In this document: positions 26,943-36,171 of the stretch, in pieces | Layout: every line of letters begins with the position of its first letter | How positions within the stretch are numbered: position 1 is the stretch's first letter | Assembly: GCA_947456095.1 (NCBI GenBank) | Contig: CANGPX010000007.1 | Location: forward strand, 1-37,611 | DNA length: 37,611 bases | DNA from: Acidimicrobiaceae bacterium | GTDB taxonomy: Bacteria > Actinomycetota > Acidimicrobiia > Acidimicrobiales > RAAP-2 | Direction: 5' to 3' | The notes under the pieces: generated by a model | What the model was told of the DNA's origin: nothing | Databases searched by the model: none | Seen by the model: the letters and a program-made list of their open reading frames with translations, nothing else | Program-made: the position numbers and the translations under genes

Positions 26943-27797
26943 TCAGTCAAAGATGCAGGTCTTGTTGCCAAAGACCTGAATGCGGTGTTCGGTGTGAAGC
27001 CGAATGGCTCGGATGAACACTGCTCGTTCAATGTCAGCTCCACGACGAACTACATCTTCAACAGTGTCGCCATGGGTGACTCGAGTCACGTCTTGGGCAA
27101 TGATCGGGCCGGCATCGAGTTCGGCGGTCACATAGTGGGCGGTCGCTCCAACCATCTTGACCCCACGCTCAAAGGCACGACGATACGGGTTCGCCCCAAC
27201 AAAGGCTGGCAAGAAGGAGTGATGCACGTTGATCATGGCGTGTTCGTATTTGTTCGTCAGCCACGCCGGCAAAATACGCATATAGCGAGCAAGCACCACA
27301 AGATCAGGACGCATTGCTTCAACCGCTGCGGCGAAACGTTGTTCTTGGTCTTCACGGTCGTCGCCGACTGGCACATACGAAAACGGCAGTCCGTAGCGAT
27401 TGGCCAATGCTTCGCCATCGAGTTGGTCTGACACGAGACCGACAACTTCGCCTTGGAGTTCTCCAAGATCAATGCGAGCGAGCAAATCACTGGCACAGTG
27501 CAGTTGACGTGAACACGCAACAACAATGCGTTGGCGGTGAGCAGGGTCGTGCAGTGCCCAGGCAAACGAGGCCACTGCGGTCTCGCTGCTCAACTGTTCT
27601 TTGAGGCGGTCAAGATCAGCTCCTGGGGCAATCTCGATCCGTGCAGCAAAGCGAGCGGAGTCAACATCGGTGTGTTGACCAAGGTCGACAATATTGCCGT
27701 TCGCCTCGGCAATGGCCGAAGCGAGCAGTGCGACAAGTCCTGGTCGATCGCTTGCATCGACGGTGAGCACAGTTGGACGAGGGTGAGAAGTCACCAC
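26943..27797 (-). CDS. purU: Formyltetrahydrofolate deformylase
   Basis: A protein of about 284 residues that hydrolyses 10-formyl-THF to formate and THF. An N-terminal ACT domain (about 8–80, with SDRPGLVALLASAIAE) precedes a GART-like catalytic domain with Asn190, His192 (MINVHHSFLPAFVGANPY) and Asp228 (LDAGPIIAQD). The C-terminus, ending QVFGNKTCIFD, matches E. coli PurU. The start is uncertain: GTG 27797 and GTG 27794 fit the ACT domain, while ATG 27839 would overlap potC by 26 bases. It is the last gene of the pot run. PurU often frees THF during heavy one-carbon flow, for example when methyl groups are removed from amines such as glycine betaine. Confidence 0.9.
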   Translation of the reverse strand: MVTSHPRPTVLTVDASDRPGLVALLASAIAEANGNIVDLGQHTDVDSARFAARIEIAPGADLDRLKEQLSSETAVASFAWALHDPAHRQRIVVACSRQLHCASDLLARIDLGELQGEVVGLVSDQLDGEALANRYGLPFSYVPVGDDREDQEQRFAAAVEAMRPDLVVLARYMRILPAWLTNKYEHAMINVHHSFLPAFVGANPYRRAFERGVKMVGATAHYVTAELDAGPIIAQDVTRVTHGDTVEDVVRRGADIERAVFIRAIRLHTEHRIQVFGNKTCIFD

Positions 27798-27813
27798 ATC
27801 ATCTTGGTCGAAA

Positions 27814-28671
27814 TTACAAACCCGTTGACACGCGCCCATGCGTTGGCTGACGCCGAGCGAGCACCACACTGAGCACTGCACAACCCAGGCCAAAGAGGAA
27901 GATGAACGTGCCGAAGACAAAGACCTGTGGCGGAATACCAATGCGAGTTGCGCCATAGACCCACACGGGGAACGGCAACTGACTGCCACTGACGAAGTTC
28001 GACGCAACAAAGTCATCAAGCGACAAGGCAAAGGCCATGAGTGCTCCCGCCATGACGCCTGGGGTGATGAGCGGCAAGGTCACCAGCCAAAACGTCGTGA
28101 GTGGCTTCGCCCCAAGGTCGCCTGCTGCTTCTTCCAAACGGCCATCAAAACCCGTCAGTCTGGCCCGCACGGTGACGGTGACATAGGCAATGGAAAACAC
28201 CGCATGACTGAGCAGCAACGTCACGAACCCACGAGCAAAATGGAGCGACGCAAATAGGCCAAGGAGTGACGCACCCATCACAATTTCCGGGGCGGCGATA
28301 TTCATGAAGAGCGTTTGATCAATGAGGCCCTTGCCTTTGAACTGCCGAGGGGAGTACCGGACAAGCGCCAAGGCCAACAAGGTGCCAAGGACCGTGGCGA
28401 TAGCCGTGGCGGCCAAGGCCAAGCGAATCGATAACCAAAACGAATCGGTTAGGCCTGGAATCTCGCTCCACTGTTGATACCACTTCGTCGTGAAACCATT
28501 CCAGGTGAAACTCACCTGCGGAATGCCACCTTCGACTTGATTGAAGCTGTAGATCACCATGGCCGCAATCGGCACGGTGAGATAGCCAATCAGTAACCAC
28601 GAATACACGCGCAGCCAGCGAACCTTGCGCTGTCGTCTCGGTGGAGGGGGTGCGTTCAGATCGAGCGCCAT
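27814..28671 (-). CDS. potC: Spermidine/putrescine-type ABC transporter permease PotC
   Basis: A 285-residue inner-membrane permease of the PotC type with six predicted helices. The cytosolic EAA loop reads EEAAGDLGAKPLTTFWLVTLPLI, the contact to the ATPase. MALSLDD (here FALSLDDFV) and the AAPEIVMGASLLGLF segment are typical of PotC. Its ATG shares one base with the potB stop (TAATG). It acts with PotB, PotA and PotD. Confidence 0.92.
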   Translation of the reverse strand: MALDLNAPPPPRRQRKVRWLRVYSWLLIGYLTVPIAAMVIYSFNQVEGGIPQVSFTWNGFTTKWYQQWSEIPGLTDSFWLSIRLALAATAIATVLGTLLALALVRYSPRQFKGKGLIDQTLFMNIAAPEIVMGASLLGLFASLHFARGFVTLLLSHAVFSIAYVTVTVRARLTGFDGRLEEAAGDLGAKPLTTFWLVTLPLITPGVMAGALMAFALSLDDFVASNFVSGSQLPFPVWVYGATRIGIPPQVFVFGTFIFLFGLGCAVLSVVLARRQPTHGRVSTGL

Positions 28672-29552
28672 TAGAGATACTCCCCAATGGACTTGGTGCC
28701 AACGATCTTGGCGTAAGCCAAAATCCCAATCAGCGAGACACCCATGAGGATGGCGGAAAGAGCCGAACCACCTGGGTAGTTGGCATTCACCAGAAAGAGA
28801 TTCTGAATGATGGTGCCAATCATCGTGTTCGAGATTCCACCTAAAACCTGTTGATTGACGTAATCACCAAGGGCGGGAATGAAGGTCAGCAAGAACGCCG
28901 CAAAGATTCCCGGGATGCACAGTGGCAACACGACTTTGACAAAACGCATCACTTTGCCGGCATAGAGGTCTGCGCCAGCATCAAGGATGCTTGAGTCAAT
29001 GCGTTCGAGTGACACATACAGCGGCAGCGCGGTGAAGGGAAGGTAGTTATAGGCCATCCCGGCAATCACTGCGGTCGAGGTTCCAAGGATGCGGTAGTCC
29101 GCACCGACGAGGTGAAGATCGCGCAGCACGGTCAAGACAATGCCGCTGTTCGATAACAAGAATTGCCAAATGATGGTGCGAATGACGAAGGAGATAAAGA
29201 ACGGCACGAGCAGCATGAGGAGGAAGAAGTTCTTCCTCCGGCCGCTGAAAAAGGCAATGAAATAGGCAATGGGAAAGGCCAGCAAGAGGTCGATGACCGT
29301 TGCAATCCCGGCGTAGCGAAGCGACGTGAAGAACTGCTTGTGAAACATCGACCATTCGAGATGAAAGATCGACCAGTTCCAGGCCATCTCGCAACTGCCC
29401 GTAATGGGACTACAGGTCTCGAGTGACTTCACCAACATGACGACGAGTGGAATCAAAAAGAGCGCAATGAGCCACACCACCGCCGGAAGGGCGAGGAGGT
29501 AGGGCACCGCAGTTTTGCGGTGCCGGCGAAACCATGAGTTGCGTTCGGTCAC
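28671..29552 (-). CDS. potB: Spermidine/putrescine-type ABC transporter permease PotB
   Basis: A 293-residue permease of the PotB type. The first helix begins at about residue 14 (YLLALPAVVWLIALFLIPLVV) and the EAA loop is ILDAGADLYAGKVMRFVKVVLPL. The segment TFIPALGDYVNQQVLGG is characteristic of PotB. Start GTG 29552 overlaps the potD stop by four bases (GTGA), which fixes it; a longer frame from 29738 lies inside potD and is rejected. The CSPITGSCEMAW loop between helices 1 and 2 has two Cys that could pair outside the membrane. Confidence 0.92.
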   Translation of the reverse strand: MTERNSWFRRHRKTAVPYLLALPAVVWLIALFLIPLVVMLVKSLETCSPITGSCEMAWNWSIFHLEWSMFHKQFFTSLRYAGIATVIDLLLAFPIAYFIAFFSGRRKNFFLLMLLVPFFISFVIRTIIWQFLLSNSGIVLTVLRDLHLVGADYRILGTSTAVIAGMAYNYLPFTALPLYVSLERIDSSILDAGADLYAGKVMRFVKVVLPLCIPGIFAAFLLTFIPALGDYVNQQVLGGISNTMIGTIIQNLFLVNANYPGGSALSAILMGVSLIGILAYAKIVGTKSIGEYL

Positions 29553-30829
29553 GCGCCTTGCACAATGGGCAAGAAGTAACCGTTCCAGGTGTCGATTTCG
29601 CTCTGGCTCTTGAATTGGTAATACGTCTTTGATGCCTTGGTCATTGCCGCCGTTGGGAAGACCTGTGGCGAGGATGCCGTGACCGACGGCGCAAGACCCA
29701 CGTCGCTCCGCATTGCCGCCAAGGTGGCCTTGTTCCACCCAGTTGGCTTCAGCAATTCATTCTTCGCCGTTGGCACTGGGCAGGCGTAGTCGATGTAGTA
29801 CTCAAGGACTGACTGGACCTTTGGGTCATAGAAGTAGTCCATGGCAATCATCGCATCGCGAGGATTTGCCGCATAGAGAGGGATGCACATGTTGTCAGTC
29901 CAGAACATGATGCCCTGCTTCGGGGTCATGAGGACAAGGTTCTTCGACCCGCTCAAGTTGGCTTGGAAGATGTCGCCGGAGTAGCTCTGGGAGGCGACCA
30001 AGTCACCATTTTTCAAGTGGCCAACGTAATCATTGCCGTAGTAGGCAGCGACAACTCCGTCATCGCGTTGTTTGCGCAATTTTGCTGCCGCTTTCGCCCA
30101 GTCAGAAGGCTTCGACGTGGCCGGGTTGACGCCAATCGCGAGAAGGCCAATGCTGCCCAGCTCAATCGGGTCGGCCATCATGCCGATCTTGCCCTTGTAC
30201 TTCTTGTCGAACAAGATGTCGAGTCCGCCACTGACATTGGTGACGGCTTTTTTGTTATACGCAACCGTCGTCCAACCGGACTGCCAGGCCATCGTGTACT
30301 TGTTGCCCTTGTCCCACGCAGGATTCTTCACTGAGGGCGATCCATACTTTTTGAAGTTGGTCATTTTTGACTGGTCGAGAGGAATCAACCAGCCACCTTT
30401 GATGAGATAGGCCAACTCAAAGGAGTTGTTCGTCATCACGATGAGGTCATATCCGGTGTTGTCGTGCGCAGCGAGCGAGGGCAAGATGCGCTGATAGAAC
30501 GACGGGTTGTCTTCAATGACCTCGGTGTAGGTCACGTTCATTCCGGTCGTCGACTCCAAGCGATCGATCGTTGGATGGTTTCCATTCAGCGTGTCGATGT
30601 AATAGGGCCAGTTGGCAAAGTGCAACTTGTCGTGGGCTGATTGGTTCTTCCACCACGATGATGAGCCAACACCGGCGTTCGGCAGTGCCGCACCAGCGAC
30701 GCCTCCACTCGCCAAGGTCAGTCCACCAGCAAGTGCGGCGCCAACGCCGAAGACTTGGCGACGTGACACGCGCTCGCCGAGCATGCCCCGAAGTATCGAC
30801 GCATCAAGATTGTTCTGGTTCTCACTCAT
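29549..30829 (-). CDS. potD: Polyamine-type substrate-binding protein PotD
   Basis: A 426-residue periplasmic-type binding protein. A twin-arginine signal is present (SRRQVF at 22–27, then a hydrophobic stretch GVGAALAGG…), so it is exported folded, and no lipobox Cys follows. The mature part has the family motifs LHFANWPYYID (like FYNWTEYV in PotD), YDLIVMTNNSFELAYLIKGGWL, NKYTMAWQSGWTTVAYNK and SYSGDIFQA. PotD pockets hold an amine between aromatic rings and acids; Trp and Asp at comparable places (FWTDNMCIP, a segment with Trp and Asp) suggest an amine ligand, but which amine is unknown. Start ATG 30829 overlaps the potA stop (ATGA). Confidence 0.9.
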   Translation of the reverse strand: MSENQNNLDASILRGMLGERVSRRQVFGVGAALAGGLTLASGGVAGAALPNAGVGSSSWWKNQSAHDKLHFANWPYYIDTLNGNHPTIDRLESTTGMNVTYTEVIEDNPSFYQRILPSLAAHDNTGYDLIVMTNNSFELAYLIKGGWLIPLDQSKMTNFKKYGSPSVKNPAWDKGNKYTMAWQSGWTTVAYNKKAVTNVSGGLDILFDKKYKGKIGMMADPIELGSIGLLAIGVNPATSKPSDWAKAAAKLRKQRDDGVVAAYYGNDYVGHLKNGDLVASQSYSGDIFQANLSGSKNLVLMTPKQGIMFWTDNMCIPLYAANPRDAMIAMDYFYDPKVQSVLEYYIDYACPVPTAKNELLKPTGWNKATLAAMRSDVGLAPSVTASSPQVFPTAAMTKASKTYYQFKSQSEIDTWNGYFLPIVQGA

Positions 30830-32004
30830 AGGGTCGCTTCACTTTCTTCGCTTAATTTCGGGGACCGGACAACAAAGGTGTGGGCAATGGGCCAGGTGAG
30901 CTGCACTCGCTCGCCCGTTCGTGGTGCTGCTGCATCGCCAAGGTTCTGGGCATAGACCGTGAACTCGCCACCAGCATCGGTCGCGACCAAATACTGATTG
31001 CCAACCCCAGTGAAGGTGGCGACTCGAACCTGGCCAGTCAGCACATTGCTTGCTGGTGAAATCGCTGCACCTTCAGCTGAAATCGAAATCTTCTCTGGCC
31101 GAACTCCAACGGAAAGGTCACCGGCCAATACCCCAGGTGGAAGCGCACTTGCATCCACGCTCACGTGTTGGCCACCACCAAGCGAAATCGTCGCGAGGTC
31201 ACCGGAGTGCTGCAAGGCAGTGACCGCCATCAAATTTGATGCCCCAAGAAATGTGGCGACAAACGCGGTGCCGGGGTGTTCATAGATTGACCGCGGGGTG
31301 CCGAGGTCTTCAATGCGTCCTTGTTGCATCACCACAATGCGATCTGACATCGTCATGGCTTCTTCTTGGTCGTGGGTCACATATAAAAAGGTGATGCCCA
31401 CTTCTTGCTGAATACGCTTCAACTCAATTTGCATGTGCTTTCGCAACTTCGCATCGAGGGCCGACATTGGTTCGTCTAACAACAACAAGGTTGGCTGATT
31501 GACGAGGGCCCGAGCGAGCGCAACTCGCTGTTGTTGTCCACCTGACAGCGCCGCAGGTCGACGATCTGCGAGGCCAGCGAGGTCCACGAGGTCCAACATG
31601 TCGGTGACCTTGGCCCGGGCCTCGGTCTTTGACTGACCTTTGCGGCGAAGTCCAAAAGCAATATTGTCGGCCACGCTCAAATGGGGAAAGAGTGCATAGG
31701 ACTGAAACACCGTGTTGACGTCTCGCTTGTGTGGCGGGAGATCCGTGACGTCTTGGCCGCCAAAGTAAATCGTCCCTGACGTTGGCGTCTCAAATCCACC
31801 AAGCATGCGAAGCGTGGTGGTCTTTCCGCAACCAGACGGGCCGAGGAGACTTAAGAACTCGCCGGCCACGATTTCAAGTGACAGATCATCAACGGCGAGA
31901 TGGTCAGCGAACTGCTTGGTGACGCGCTGAAGCACCACGTTGCCGGTCTGCGTTTCCGCAGGACCAGACGAGCGTTGAAGCATGTTGGCCACTAAACGAA
32001 CCAT
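30826..32004 (-). CDS. potA: Spermidine/putrescine-type ABC transporter ATPase PotA
   Basis: A 392-residue ATPase. Walker A GPSGCGKTT (55–63), Q-loop Gln101, ABC signature LSGGQQQR (153–160), Walker B LLLLDEP (173–179) and switch His211 are all intact, and a TOBE regulatory domain (about residues 270–385) follows. It drives import through PotB and PotC. The start is uncertain: ATG 32004, GTG 31992 (which lies seven bases after a TATGGT box) or ATG 31983 are all possible; I report the longest plausible one. It follows the amidohydrolase gene by 57 bases. Confidence 0.9.
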   Translation of the reverse strand: MVRLVANMLQRSSGPAETQTGNVVLQRVTKQFADHLAVDDLSLEIVAGEFLSLLGPSGCGKTTTLRMLGGFETPTSGTIYFGGQDVTDLPPHKRDVNTVFQSYALFPHLSVADNIAFGLRRKGQSKTEARAKVTDMLDLVDLAGLADRRPAALSGGQQQRVALARALVNQPTLLLLDEPMSALDAKLRKHMQIELKRIQQEVGITFLYVTHDQEEAMTMSDRIVVMQQGRIEDLGTPRSIYEHPGTAFVATFLGASNLMAVTALQHSGDLATISLGGGQHVSVDASALPPGVLAGDLSVGVRPEKISISAEGAAISPASNVLTGQVRVATFTGVGNQYLVATDAGGEFTVYAQNLGDAAAPRTGERVQLTWPIAHTFVVRSPKLSEESEATL

Positions 32005-32061
32005 AGCCCCAGTTGGCAATTGGCACTCAGCAAAAATGAGAACGGAGTGTGAACTCTTGTC

Positions 32062-33324
32062 CTAGCAGCGAGCAGCAAAGACCTTGGCCGCCTCGATCAC
32101 TGCGGCAAGGTCAATCGTCGCAAGTTGGCCCCTCTCAACCACTCGCCGCCCACGCGACCACACCTCAACAACATCTGCGCGAGACGCCGCGTAGACAATC
32201 GCACTCACTGGATCATGAACTGGGTTGAGTGCAGGTGAACTTGCGTCGAGTACCACGAGATCTGCGTCAAAGCCGACTTTGAGGACACCGGTGCTGTCGC
32301 CAACACCAAGTGCGGCAGCTCCATGGCGGGTTGCCATGGCAAGCACCTCACTCGCCGGCAGCGCGGTGGCATCGCCACTGTTCACCTTCGCCATCAGCGC
32401 CGCCATGCGCATGGCTTGGTAGAGATCAAGATCATTGGACGATGCCGGACCATCAGTGCCAAGTGCGACGGTTGCCCCAGCGGCAAGCAAATCCGTCACT
32501 CGACAAAAGCCAGACGCGAGTTTCATATTGGAAAGTGGGCAGTGCGCCACAGCGGTGCGCGTTGCCCCGAGCAGTGCCACCTCGTCATTGGTCAACCACA
32601 CACCATGGGCGAGCACCGAGGTTAGACCGAGCAGCCCGGCGTCATGGAGCACGCCAATAGGACGCTTACCGGTCTTTTCGACCACGTCTTGAACTTCTGC
32701 TTCGGTTTCTGCTGCATGAATGGTGAAGCGAGCCTCATGGCGCTGACGAAGATCTGCCACAAGACCGAGTTCTTCTTCGGTCATCGTGTAGGTCCCATGG
32801 GCCACCACCCACTCCCACGGTGAGGCCTCAAAGCGCTCGAGACCAACAGCAATGGAGGCAGTATCGGGCGAGGGAAAGCCAATAAACGTCGGCCCGGTGT
32901 TCAAGGAGAATCCAAGTGACGCGGCAGTTTCCACCGCTACTTCTGGCCAGAAGTACATGTCGAGTGCACGCACCGAACCGGCGAGAAACGATTCTGCAAT
33001 TGCCAGGCTGATCCCAGTTCGAATGGCTGATTCATCAAGAAGGGCTGCTTCGAGCGGAAAGATCCGTGCCAGAAACGCTTCCAAATTTCGGTCGTCAGCA
33101 ACGCCTCTGAACAAGGTCATCGCGAGATGACTATGGGCATTGATGAGGGCCGGGTGAACAATTCCACCTCGCGCATCAACAATGTCGCAGCCGTCGGTGT
33201 TCACCGAAGCCGTTGGACCAATGGCGTCAATGGAGTTACCACTGATCACGATGGTGGCACCGAACAGCACAGTGTTGTCCTCGTCCCCGGTGACGACAGT
33301 TGCATTGATGATGGCGGTGTTCAT
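32062..33324 (-). CDS. Cytosine-deaminase-like amidohydrolase, MTA/SAH deaminase group
   Basis: A 420-residue metal-dependent hydrolase. His64 and His66 in NAHSHLAM, His203 and Glu206 in IHAAETEAE, His240 in LAHGVWL and Asp291 in LGTDGPASSND give the complete active site. CPLSNMKLASG and the small N- and C-terminal beta domain agree with the 5'-methylthioadenosine/S-adenosylhomocysteine deaminase group. MTA is a by-product of spermidine synthesis, which suits the pot genes, but other deaminases or hydrolases (such as 8-oxoguanine or s-triazine type) share these motifs. Its start overlaps the NERD gene stop by four bases (ATGA, 33321–33324). Confidence 0.85.
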   Translation of the reverse strand: MNTAIINATVVTGDEDNTVLFGATIVISGNSIDAIGPTASVNTDGCDIVDARGGIVHPALINAHSHLAMTLFRGVADDRNLEAFLARIFPLEAALLDESAIRTGISLAIAESFLAGSVRALDMYFWPEVAVETAASLGFSLNTGPTFIGFPSPDTASIAVGLERFEASPWEWVVAHGTYTMTEEELGLVADLRQRHEARFTIHAAETEAEVQDVVEKTGKRPIGVLHDAGLLGLTSVLAHGVWLTNDEVALLGATRTAVAHCPLSNMKLASGFCRVTDLLAAGATVALGTDGPASSNDLDLYQAMRMAALMAKVNSGDATALPASEVLAMATRHGAAALGVGDSTGVLKVGFDADLVVLDASSPALNPVHDPVSAIVYAASRADVVEVWSRGRRVVERGQLATIDLAAVIEAAKVFAARC

Positions 33325-34910
33325 CGCGGGCCCACGAGCCCCAAGACCTCGCCAACTTCACGGCTCGAGATGACGACGAGTTCCTCGTTGGCTCGGCTGA
33401 CCGAGGTGTAAAGCTCGGCGAGGTCCAAAGCGGTGAGGTGGTCGGCCACAAAGATCAGCCGATCCACATCGAGACCTTTCAAGCGTCGAACGGTCTCGCA
33501 CACCACTGCACCTTCGTTGCCACGTTCCTCGAATCGCACAAGGCCGAGTTCACTCGAGAGACGATCTCGGTAGCTGCCAGAAATGGTGAGGACCCACGTC
33601 GTGAGATCACTTTCGCTGCCGAGTGCTGCTCGAACGGCGGCGACCACGTCATCTTCCGTTGTTGCTTCGCTCCACGTGATGGCCGAGGAGAACGGTTCTT
33701 TGTTTGGGCTTGCTGCGCCCTGGAGGCGCCTTCTGAGCAACTGAGCAATTGCCGGGCCGTTGCGGCCATTGCTCAACAGCTCTGCTTTGGCCCAACGGTC
33801 GTCAAAGAAGGCGAGGGAAAATTCATGGTCTCGGAGATTCTGGCGAGGATCGGCCACGGCAAAGAGTCTTCCCCCTGGGACGACCAGCTGCTCGAGGAGG
33901 TCCAGCCACTCTTTGGGGAAATCTTGCGCTTCGTCGACGATCACCGTGTCGAAGGTGAGGGGACGATCACAAAGAACGCCTCGAGCAACACTTGGCAAGT
34001 TGTCCCAGTAGTGCTGAAGTTTGGTGCCGTCAGCTGGAGCCGAGGTCCCGCAGTGCTGTTCCAACAGGCGCAAGAACGGCGAGACCGTAATTTGCGAAAA
34101 GGCGCTGAGTTCTTCGCCCAAGGCCTTGGCCAGCGGGTCGTTGTACATCGTGAACAGCACACGCTCACCTCGCCGTGCCGCGCTCTTGGCCCAAGCCACG
34201 GCAAGTCGGGTCTTTCCCGTACCGGCACTGCCGCTCACCAGCACTCGCTTGTTGCGGTCAAGGGTTTCAAGAACCTTGGTTTCGGCAATGAGGCGCTGCT
34301 CCATTCTTGAGCGAACGAGTTGTCGAAGGGCTGCTCGAGAATTGATGAGGTGGGCATCAGGGCACAACACGGCCAACACCTGCTGGAAGCGTTCTTCGCC
34401 GAGTGGTTCGGCGTAGGCATCGGCCTCACACAAGTTCAAAACCGCGTTATGCACATCGGCCAAGTCCGCCGCACCGAAGAGTTGTCGCTGGTGCAACTGT
34501 GGACCAAGTGCACCAGTCACGACAATGGTCTCAGGACTGGCAATAGCAAAGCGGATGTCGTTGTAGCCGTGGGTCAACAGGCCCTCGAGGGCTTTTGCCA
34601 AATATCTGCGCTGGGCTCGCACTTGGTCAAGAGGGTCGTTGTCCAAGGCCTTGCCATCGAAGTAGAAGAACTGGCCGCCTTCGACGTAAAAGGGGAAGGA
34701 CTTCACTTCAATAATCACGAGGCCGTAGTGCGGGTGCACGACAAGAAGGTCAAGTTCACGCTCGCCGGGGAGATCGTCTAAGCGAAGCTCCATGGATGGG
34801 ATGAGTACCCAGTCGTCACCCAACTGGTCGTGCAGGGCCGAATACACCGCGTATTCAGCATTGTTCTTGAAGCGATCCCTGTTCATTTTGTCCGGGATTG
34901 GCAGTGCCAC
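33321..34910 (-). CDS. NERD nuclease-domain–superfamily 1 helicase fusion
   Basis: A 529-residue protein. Residues about 12–125 form a NERD domain with a PD-(D/E)xK-like core: Asp54 in ERELDLLVV and Glu68-Val-Lys70 in IIEVKSF. A UvrD/Rep-type SF1 helicase follows, with Walker A GSAGTGKTR (227–235), Walker B VIVDEAQD (323–330), an AVADPRQN segment (351–358, motif III-like) and a C-terminal YTSVSRANEELVVIS (motif VI). The two-part build suggests a nuclease-helicase for DNA repair or phage defence. GTG 34910 has AAGG upstream. It heads the seven-gene minus-strand run and is divergent from an AAA ATPase. Confidence 0.88.
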   Translation of the reverse strand: MALPIPDKMNRDRFKNNAEYAVYSALHDQLGDDWVLIPSMELRLDDLPGERELDLLVVHPHYGLVIIEVKSFPFYVEGGQFFYFDGKALDNDPLDQVRAQRRYLAKALEGLLTHGYNDIRFAIASPETIVVTGALGPQLHQRQLFGAADLADVHNAVLNLCEADAYAEPLGEERFQQVLAVLCPDAHLINSRAALRQLVRSRMEQRLIAETKVLETLDRNKRVLVSGSAGTGKTRLAVAWAKSAARRGERVLFTMYNDPLAKALGEELSAFSQITVSPFLRLLEQHCGTSAPADGTKLQHYWDNLPSVARGVLCDRPLTFDTVIVDEAQDFPKEWLDLLEQLVVPGGRLFAVADPRQNLRDHEFSLAFFDDRWAKAELLSNGRNGPAIAQLLRRRLQGAASPNKEPFSSAITWSEATTEDDVVAAVRAALGSESDLTTWVLTISGSYRDRLSSELGLVRFEERGNEGAVVCETVRRLKGLDVDRLIFVADHLTALDLAELYTSVSRANEELVVISSREVGEVLGLVGPR

Positions 34911-35011
34911 GATGCCTTCTTTTCTTCTCGAAACTTGCTCTGTTCACCGTATCGCTTTCGCCGAATGGTCGATAACTGGCAAGTGCGACTCGCGATGGCA
35001 CACCACACCCC

Positions 35012-35017
35012 TAGAGT
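35012..35017 (+). promoter_or_regulatory. Candidate -10 box of the AAA ATPase gene
   Basis: TAGAGT in the 148-base interval between the divergent NERD and AAA genes would give a leader of about 35 bases to ATG 35059. No clear -35 box is visible and the start codon itself is not certain, so this is tentative. Confidence 0.25.
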
Positions 35018-35058
35018 CACCAATCCACCATTTTGAGCAAGACGTCGAGCAACAGCCG

Positions 35059-36171
35059 ATGAACAAAGGGAGTGCCTTGAACATTTCACCTGAGCCAGAA
35101 GCCATGACCGCACACTCAGTGCCACTCATCCGCTCTCGTACCTTCTCCTACTTAGAAGGTGCGCTTGAGTTGGAAGTCATGGCGAGCAACCACGATGCCT
35201 CGCTCCCACATTCGGGCCGTGTTTGGCTCACCCATGCTCCCGACCTCGACGTCACCTTGGAAGTCCTGCTTGATGCTCTTCCAGCCGATGCGAAAGTCAC
35301 GCGTACGTTCTTCACCGAACACAACCTCGTGGTGCTGGTCCGTGGTGAAACCTTTGTGGCAAAGATCGACTGCCACATGTCGACGCTCGACATGGAATTC
35401 GCCGCTACCTCGCATGAAGAGGTCAAGACCATTGCCAAAGCCTTCGAAGATGCCCTCGAGTACTCGCCACCTGCCAATGAAGCCATCACGGTTGGGGTCT
35501 GGGGTGGAGGGGAAATCCTCTATCGCGACCACAAAGATCCCGTTGATTGGGCCGAGATTGCCGAGAACTACACCGAAGGCACCCGTGAGGCCTTGAGCCA
35601 GTTGATGCTCCAAGTGGCTGAAACCCCCCGCTCTGGAAAGATCATTTTGTGGCACGGTGAGCCTGGAACCGGCAAGTCGTGGGCACTGCGTTCGCTCGTC
35701 AGCTCATGGCGCGACTGGTGTCAAGCCAACCTCATCTTGGATCCAGAAGCCGCCTTTGCCGACCCGAAGTACGTCGCTCAGTTACTGAAAGCTCAAGGTA
35801 CAACCAAGCATCGGCTGCTCATCTGTGAAGACGCCGACTCGCTCGTCAGTTCCCGAGAAGGGCGCGAAGGGCGCTTGGAGCGAATCTTGAATATGGCTGA
35901 CGGTCTCGTTGGCCAGGGCTCAAACGTCATGATCTTGATCACGACCAATGCCGGACCGGACCGCCTCGACCCAGCAGTCAGTCGTCCGGGGCGCTGCTTT
36001 GCCAACATTGCCTTCAACCGTTTCACGTTGGAAGAAACCAAGGCCCGAGTGAAGGGCTCAGGGCTTCGGGTGAAAGCAGCAATGACGCTGGCGGAGACCT
36101 ACAACGTCAACCGTCGTGACCAGCAGATTCAAGACACGAAGGTCGAAGCCTCGGTCGGCCAGTACTTGTAG
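35059..36171 (+). CDS. AAA-family ATPase (DUF5925-like N-terminus)
   Basis: A protein of about 370 residues. The C-terminal AAA module has Walker A GEPGTGKS (200–207), Walker B LLICEDAD (253–260), sensor 1 TTN (295–297) and the SRPGR box (308–312, arginine finger region). The N-terminal half (about residues 20–190) resembles the DUF5925 domain paired with AAA in actinobacteria, including VTRTFFTEHNLVVLVRG and YRDHKDPVDW. Its job is unknown; AAA proteins remodel proteins or DNA. Start ATG 35059 or ATG 35104; neither has a clear Shine-Dalgarno. The upstream frame from 34792 is rejected because it runs over the divergent gene. Confidence 0.85.
   Translation: MNKGSALNISPEPEAMTAHSVPLIRSRTFSYLEGALELEVMASNHDASLPHSGRVWLTHAPDLDVTLEVLLDALPADAKVTRTFFTEHNLVVLVRGETFVAKIDCHMSTLDMEFAATSHEEVKTIAKAFEDALEYSPPANEAITVGVWGGGEILYRDHKDPVDWAEIAENYTEGTREALSQLMLQVAETPRSGKIILWHGEPGTGKSWALRSLVSSWRDWCQANLILDPEAAFADPKYVAQLLKAQGTTKHRLLICEDADSLVSSREGREGRLERILNMADGLVGQGSNVMILITTNAGPDRLDPAVSRPGRCFANIAFNRFTLEETKARVKGSGLRVKAAMTLAETYNVNRRDQQIQDTKVEASVGQYL

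Follow-up and report, generated by a model that had tools for sequence, protein, structure and literature searches.

The locus and its two divergent genes

The 37,611-nucleotide stretch of DNA analyzed here (the window) carries, back to back, a gene for a nuclease-helicase and a gene for an AAA ATPase, which raises the question of whether the two work together or are neighbors with separate roles. The features on which the answer depends are the following.

32062-33324, minus strand, amidohydrolase gene, a neighbor outside the ATPase proposal
33321-34910, minus strand, NERD nuclease–SF1 helicase fusion gene (529 aa, GTG start)
33351-34280, minus strand, SF1 helicase core of the NERD-helicase (about aa 211-520)
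34587-34865, minus strand, NERD nuclease domain (Pfam; aa 16-108; D54, E68, K70)
34911-35076, strandless, divergent intergenic region common to both genes (166 bases)
35077-36171, plus strand, DUF5925-AAA ATPase gene (TTG start preferred; ATG 35059 is an in-frame alternative)
35278-35607, plus strand, DUF5925 N-terminal domain (Pfam; residues 74-183 counted from ATG 35059)
35644-36015, plus strand, AAA core (residues 196-319; Walker A GEPGTGKS, Walker B LLICED, SRH RPGR)
36118-36168, plus strand, C-terminal tail ending GQYL (residues 354-370; from pLDDT under 50 and tail conservation)
36157-36171, plus strand, GQYL and stop (GGC CAG TAC TTG TAG), proposed 20S docking motif

Both genes are present as claimed in the preliminary description: the NERD-helicase scores 43 bits for the Pfam model NERD (cut-off 22.1), 33 bits for UvrD, and 35 bits for AAA_19, and the ATPase, for which a DUF5925-like N-terminus had been read, exceeds both of its cut-offs with 44 bits for AAA and 36.7 bits for DUF5925 (PF19347; gathering score 27 bits). 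The PD-(D/E)xK-like NERD core (D54, E68, and K70) held up, these residues being invariant in 17 homologs (26 to 94% identity), and so did the intact SF1 helicase, whose Walker A K233, D326/E327, and R383/N384 are invariant across the same 17 homologs. The reported coupling of the helicase to metabolic genes was also seen, with a 4-base overlap between the amidohydrolase gene and the NERD-helicase stop, and with polyamine-type transporter genes in the same metabolic operon. The NERD-helicase/ATPase pair is flanked by an amidohydrolase gene and a CLC channel gene. Concerning the start of the ATPase gene, a Shine-Dalgarno-like AAGGGAG lies upstream of TTG 35077, and the sister species (G223) has lost one base, so that its upstream ATG is no longer in frame, whereas a GTG at the TTG position remains open; TTG 35077 is therefore a better start than ATG 35059. 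From this TTG the ATPase is 364 aa long, and the shared control region, previously given as 148 bases, becomes the 166 bases listed above. The C-terminal GQYL (36157 to 36168) had been overlooked in the first reading, and a literature search found no paper on DUF5925.

One defense system or two separate genes

The two genes had been proposed as a candidate defense or repair pair, in which the ATPase would remodel or activate the NERD nuclease-helicase as part of a two-component anti-phage or repair system. Several observations speak for such a pairing: the shared divergent region is retained in the sister species, the two genes lie about 5 kb apart in one further genome (G232, locus L086), relatives of the NERD-helicase occur near defense genes, and the suggested co-occurrence check gave a positive result within the family, with both genes in 6 of 100 genomes versus about 1.9 expected (11 and 17 genomes carrying one of them singly; Fisher p = 0.003), half of these six genomes belonging to one genus. 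The same check failed outside the family, where 0 of about 191 sampled genomes carried both genes. Moreover, adjacency is limited to this genome and its sister species, which are 92 to 94% identical, the two genes already lie on different contigs in a genome of the same genus (G022), the contexts of the ATPase gene hold just isolated generic helicase or ATPase matches as regards defense, and a pairing would leave the proteasome-type tail described below unexplained. We therefore rejected the two-gene NERD-helicase/AAA defense system on linkage and co-occurrence and regard it as very improbable; the sequence evidence of the ATPase itself points to the proteasome.

What survives of the earlier proposal is the nuclease-helicase as a defense or repair factor, without the ATPase as its partner. 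The NERD-helicase is patchy (about 13 of 198 genomes of the order), and 4 of the 11 contexts read within the order are defense neighborhoods, namely, SspC-SspD-PbeA-PbeC, SspC/SspA/SIR2, ZacB/ZacC, and a DpdF-like gene with a second NERD+UvrD protein; the known systems adjoining these relatives are thus Ssp/Pbe, SspABC, Azaca, and Dpd-like. Since relatives adjoin defense genes in these contexts, solo defense or repair is plausible, and we lean slightly toward a one-gene DNA-targeting factor, Nhi-like or C3a187-like, a reading also consistent with the intact catalytic residues and with the PADLOC scores (NERD+UvrD, 56 bits; RTasNERD-Hel, 84 bits). Like Nhi, C3a187 NERD+UvrD, and RTasNERD-Hel, the window protein joins a nuclease and an SF1 helicase in a single polypeptide, but it differs from those systems by its weak match to Nhi models (23.7 bits, E 4e-6) and by having no adjoining reverse transcriptase or YprA gene. 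Plasmid homologs, which also speak for a defense role, are accompanied by DUF1998 and YprA-type helicases; this cassette occurs only with these distant homologs, and membership of an ARMADA/TALON/DISARM-like system was rejected, as the flanks of the window gene hold no YprA helicase or DUF1998 gene. Against a solo defense role stand the coupling of the window copy to amidohydrolase and transporter genes and the position of copies in other genomes beside recBCD or glycosyltransferases. Altogether, the NERD-helicase is a separate gene, whose product most likely works on its own as a nuclease-helicase against foreign or damaged DNA. Such a role is compatible with the proteasome proposal for the ATPase.

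A proteasome-type tail on the ATPase

Mpa/ARC and Bpa dock on the 20S proteasome by the motif GQYL, and recent reviews list three bacterial 20S activators (Mpa/ARC, Bpa/PafE, and Cpa), with GQYL only in Mpa and Bpa. The window ATPase ends with this same GQYL, a C-terminal GxYL with a penultimate tyrosine, as do its counterpart in the sister species and the Mpa/ARC of this genome (...VGTGQYL). The window contains a single GQYL followed by a stop, versus 0 expected from shuffled sequence, and the 1.97-Mb assembly contains four, i.e., in the ATPase gene, in the Mpa/ARC gene, and in two short frames (39 and 79 aa), so that the ATPase and Mpa/ARC are the only substantial proteins of the whole assembly ending in GQYL. 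The tail is predicted to be disordered. Among 46 non-redundant DUF5925-AAA homologs (under 60% identical), 35 have a Y-[LIV] terminus, mostly G-x-Y-L, preceded by a variable, alignment-poor linker; the Q of GQYL is freely replaceable in Mpa/Bpa (PMC6017811). Because this end is that of known activators and is also found in some phage versions of the protein, the ATPase is probably an unrecognized proteasome feeder, and we consider it likely, judging from sequence, to belong to a so far undescribed proteasome-docking ATPase family in Actinomycetota.

We propose a model in which the ATPase would form a ring, dock on the 20S proteasome by its GQYL tail, open the gate upon docking, and unfold substrates to feed them to the 20S. 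It would act alongside Mpa/ARC and independently of Pup, to which we infer no binding.

The distribution of the tail is consistent with this model. This genome encodes a complete Pup-proteasome operon (contig C30; PrcB 310 bits, PrcA 283 bits) and an Mpa/ARC scoring 755 bits against TIGR03689. A bacterial 20S beta subunit above the cut-off was found in 9/9 tested genomes with a tailed homolog versus 0/7 with a tailless one, and the 41 tree rows of known 20S status comprise 33 tailed and 20S positive, 5 tailless and negative, 3 tailless and positive, and none tailed and negative. Of the three tailless copies in 20S-positive genomes, L042 and L213 cluster with sequences from viruses, and L084 is accompanied by a tailed paralog. 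One tailed homolog (G272) comes from a genome of 81% completeness with no proteasome match, and another (L177) from a genome showing just a 29-residue 20S beta fragment. Tree-corrected statistics are weak because relatedness leaves only 2 to 3 independent pairs, for which a sign test is not significant; the tail changes three times on the cellular tree and seven times when viruses are included, and it may alternatively be read as a single inherited trait. The ATPase gene is patchy in the order (about 21 of 198 genomes) while the proteasome is present in nearly all, which would make it an accessory rather than a core activator there. No conserved partner gene was found beyond the genus level among 80 loci; in three f1/g2 genomes, and not elsewhere, the ATPase gene lies between an ahcY-like gene (upstream, by sequence) and a PIG-L-like gene. 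No linkage to the proteasome operon was found either, the two being about 100 kb apart in four Streptomyces-like contigs.

Relation to known activators and AAA rings

Mpa/ARC resembles the window ATPase as an AAA protein of proteasome-positive Actinomycetota with a C-terminal GQYL and a superposable core (Z 13.6 for 20S-bound mycobacterial Mpa). Unlike Mpa/ARC, the window ATPase has no coiled-coil/OB/beta-grasp model match, its N-domain being DUF5925, and its family lies outside the Pup operon and is missing from most proteasome genomes sampled. Membership of the Mpa/ARC family proper was rejected, since TIGR03689 gives no match at E 0.01. Bpa/PafE shares GQYL after a variable stretch and a gene apart from the proteasome operon, and it was found by its C-terminal motif and its co-occurrence with prcBA, criteria used here too (PMC4254994); but it is ATP-independent, is no ATPase, and has been reported from almost all actinobacteria that possess a proteasome, whereas the window family is a patchy AAA ATPase. 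Cpa is a hexameric, Cdc48-like AAA interactor of the 20S, Pup-independent and outside the Pup locus, without GQYL (PMC8223512). The window ATPase differs by its GQYL and single AAA domain, and Cpa membership was rejected on that domain count and on a TIGR01243 score of 20 bits, far below the cut-off (803).

The closest solved folds to the AAA core are those of Bcs1, YjoB, and TRIP13-like proteins (TRIP13-like Z 14.4, Bcs1 Z 14.2), on a par with Mpa. AAA rings of the Bcs1 kind do not necessarily unfold substrates. The ATPase could be a chaperone ring of this type, its Y-L tail binding another partner or being structural, and the proteasome link a phylogenetic coincidence. The few independent evolutionary pairs would fit such a coincidence, and homologs without 20S conserve another short motif, GF, at the C-terminus. 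Nevertheless, Bcs1/YjoB/TRIP13-like proteins have a different N-domain and no described proteasome tail, and the tail of the window ATPase is identical to that of the Mpa of this genome, tracks 20S presence, and recurs in mycobacteriophages, so that we find a chaperone ring unlikely and favor proteasome docking. Foldseek of the whole model gave low TM values (0.3 to 0.45) because of domain orientation. Secondary structure makes an aromatic in pore loop 1 plausible; sequence alignment with Mpa fixed no register.

Significance and phage-encoded copies

If correct, proteasome docking would give Streptomyces, Nocardia, and Acidimicrobiia-like bacteria a second ATP-driven, probably Pup-independent route to the proteasome and would assign a function to DUF5925. 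Bpa was discovered in 2014 by a motif search in M. tuberculosis, and the ATPase gene is absent from the nine sampled genomes of g197 (probable Mycobacterium and probable phage host genus), which would explain why the family was missed.

Three Myrna-type mycobacteriophages encode DUF5925-AAA proteins ending in AVGQYL, the one of Myrna being gp262, and phages might thus redirect the proteasome of their host; our literature search found no paper linking Myrna with the proteasome. An evenly balanced hypothesis could be that phages infecting actinobacteria with a proteasome take over the host 20S via their own GQYL-tailed DUF5925-AAA protein and that the chromosomal copies, the one in the window included, join Mpa and Bpa as a third family of GxYL activators, moving between phages and hosts. 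It builds on the Myrna-type copies, on the absence of the gene from the g197 genomes, and on the different tail of homologs in phages whose hosts have no proteasome. In phages that infect Gram-negative bacteria, seven homologs are without GQYL, six of them terminating in a GF motif.

The divergent genes and their pairing

The window, contig C7 of an actinobacterial assembly of 1.97 Mb (80% complete), carries both genes of the preliminary description as real, intact reading frames:

33321-34910, minus strand, NERD-helicase (nuclease-SF1 helicase fusion), intact, divergent from the AAA gene
35077-36171, plus strand, DUF5925-AAA ATPase gene, intact, divergent from the NERD-helicase

The AAA gene start should be placed at TTG 35077, because a one-base deletion in the sister species G223 shifts the upstream ATG into another frame; with this start, the shared divergent region measures 166 bases and not the 148 first given. 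The coupling of the helicase to metabolic genes was borne out. An operon-like run (26943-33324), with the NERD-helicase at its head, comprises genes for polyamine-type ABC transport, for a formyltetrahydrofolate deformylase-like protein, and for an amidohydrolase; it is syntenic in the sister species up to the end of that species' contig.

The two genes had been proposed as a defence or repair pair, which their distribution largely refutes. Counting clear homologs in 198 genomes of the order, we found ~13 for the NERD-helicase and ~21 for the AAA gene, both together only in the window's genome, the same-genus G022, and G074, a single family. The family sample (100 genomes) gave 11 with the NERD-helicase, 17 with the AAA gene, and 6 with both (Fisher p = 0.003, a value limited by three of these six belonging to one genus). 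Adjacency is confined to the window's genome and the sister species (L085); in G232 (L086), ~5 kb separates the genes, and G022 has them on two contigs. In AAA neighbourhoods, the matches were limited to PbeA-like helicases standing alone and other lone generic hits.

The most fitting reading of the NERD-helicase is that of an accessory nuclease-helicase, the type named NERD+UvrD by PADLOC. None of 17 homologs departs from D54, E68, K70, or the helicase motifs, and the model (pLDDT 85) structurally matches Schlafen and other SF1 helicases. As a defence gene it retains the support of some relatives' neighbourhoods, but not the AAA partnership: relatives adjoin SspC-SspD-PbeA-PbeC (G209), SspC/SspA and SIR2 (G102), Azaca ZacB/ZacC (G134), or, in G011, a second NERD+UvrD together with a DpdF-like gene. 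The neighbours of other relatives are recBCD, a transposase, glycosyltransferases, or a T5orf172 nuclease. Distant plasmid homologs occur in DUF1998/helicase cassettes resembling YprA-family systems (PMC12458937). Five such cassettes (L105, L107, L108, L109, L112) combine the homolog with a helicase and a DUF1998 gene, often with a UvrD helicase (ARMADA/DISARM-like). In two genomes of genus g139 (L086, L087), recCBD-like genes lie beside the NERD-helicase, in one of them separated from it by an AbiEii-like nucleotidyltransferase.

A proteasome-type tail on the AAA protein

We consider it likely that the AAA protein works like a GxYL proteasome activator. It ends in GQYL, the C-terminal motif used by Mpa/ARC and Bpa for docking to the 20S proteasome, a motif whose Q is freely replaceable (PMC6017811, PMC12288473, PMC8223512). 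The window's genome encodes a complete system, each component over its NCBIfam cut-off:

L217:4312-10615 (contig C30), Pup-proteasome operon (PafA, PrcA, PrcB, Pup, Dop, Mpa/ARC)

Its Mpa likewise ends in GQYL, and scanning the assembly for GQYL plus stop gave four places: the AAA gene, Mpa, and two short frames. Residues 354-370 are disordered in the AlphaFold model, as would be expected of a docking tail.

Among 80 homologs from a scan of genome contigs, nearly all from Actinomycetota, the complete actinobacterial proteins finish, nearly without exception, with G-x-Y-L (GLYL, GQYL, GMYL, GFYL, etc.) behind a variable linker, whereas homologs from Bacteroidia, Anaerolineales, and 'Proteobacteria' MAGs do not. 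Reduced to <60% identity, 35/46 homologs end in Y-[LIV]. G262 carries two copies (L072, L084), one ending KSYL and the other RFGFHQ.

In the genomes sampled, the tail tends to accompany the proteasome. The bacterial 20S beta model TIGR03690, for which no control genome exceeded the cut-off, was positive in 9/9 genomes with a tailed homolog versus 0/7 with a tailless one. In the phylum sample (396 genomes), DUF5925 occurred in 22 and PrcB in 157, with PrcB in 18 of the 22 (p = 5e-5); of the four without it, the three readable homologs are tailless (L208, L211, L212). Across 41 tree rows, 33 were tailed with 20S, none tailed without, 3 tailless with, and 5 tailless without (p = 7e-5), an association not significant once corrected for relatedness because the tree gives just two or three independent pairs. 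Of the 3 tailless copies from genomes with a proteasome, two cluster with viral sequences; the other has a paralog that carries the tail. G272 (81% complete, tailed homolog) gave no proteasome match, and the L177 genome only a PrcB fragment.

The core matches TRIP13-like proteins (Z 14.4), Bcs1 (14.2), and 20S-bound Mpa (13.6) about equally. Membership of Mpa/ARC, which shares the GQYL end, was rejected for lack of a TIGR03689 match, and that of Cpa for a score far below the CDC48 cut-off. The Walker motifs and arginine-finger RPGR are intact. Pore loop 1 would be expected after beta 2 and before the long helix that follows, and a conserved Y-[LV] stands there, although aligning the protein with Mpa gave no confirmation that this is the loop. 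The protein would form a ring, DUF5925 would take a substrate or adaptor, the GxYL tails would enter the alpha-ring pockets, and ATP would drive feeding of the proteasome; it is the sequence-level parts of this working that our analysis documents.

Phage and viral homologs

Searching phage records by tblastn matched three mycobacteriophages, whose homologs all end in AVGQYL; in the two tested (Myrna and ScoobyDoobyDoo), DUF5925 and AAA exceeded the cut-off:

ScoobyDoobyDoo, L220:2692-3882, DUF5925-AAA gene ending GQYL
Phabba, L221:2521-3744, DUF5925-AAA gene ending GQYL
Myrna (gp262), L222:2521-3741, DUF5925-AAA gene ending GQYL

A 20S proteasome is present in M. smegmatis, the host of these phages (e.g., PMC6017811). 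In g197, probably Mycobacterium, nine genomes carry PrcB and no AAA homolog. The phage genes adjoin ribose-phosphate pyrophosphokinase and nicotinamide/nicotinate phosphoribosyltransferase genes.

Homologs in Pseudomonas, Xanthomonas, Acinetobacter, and Myxococcus phages end in a GF motif instead, and that of an Erwinia phage in neither type; among 80 viral contigs, 12 have the Y-[LIV] end, 55 the GF motif, and 13 neither. A short C-terminal motif, [KR]-[IVM]-G-F, is common to homologs of proteasome-free hosts and most viral contigs (L187, L188, L191, L192, L261-L309) and may be another docking tail. Six viral contigs with Y-L-tailed homologs (L233, L236, L239, L241, L243, L256; G+C 43-63%) are candidates for further proteasome-targeting phages.
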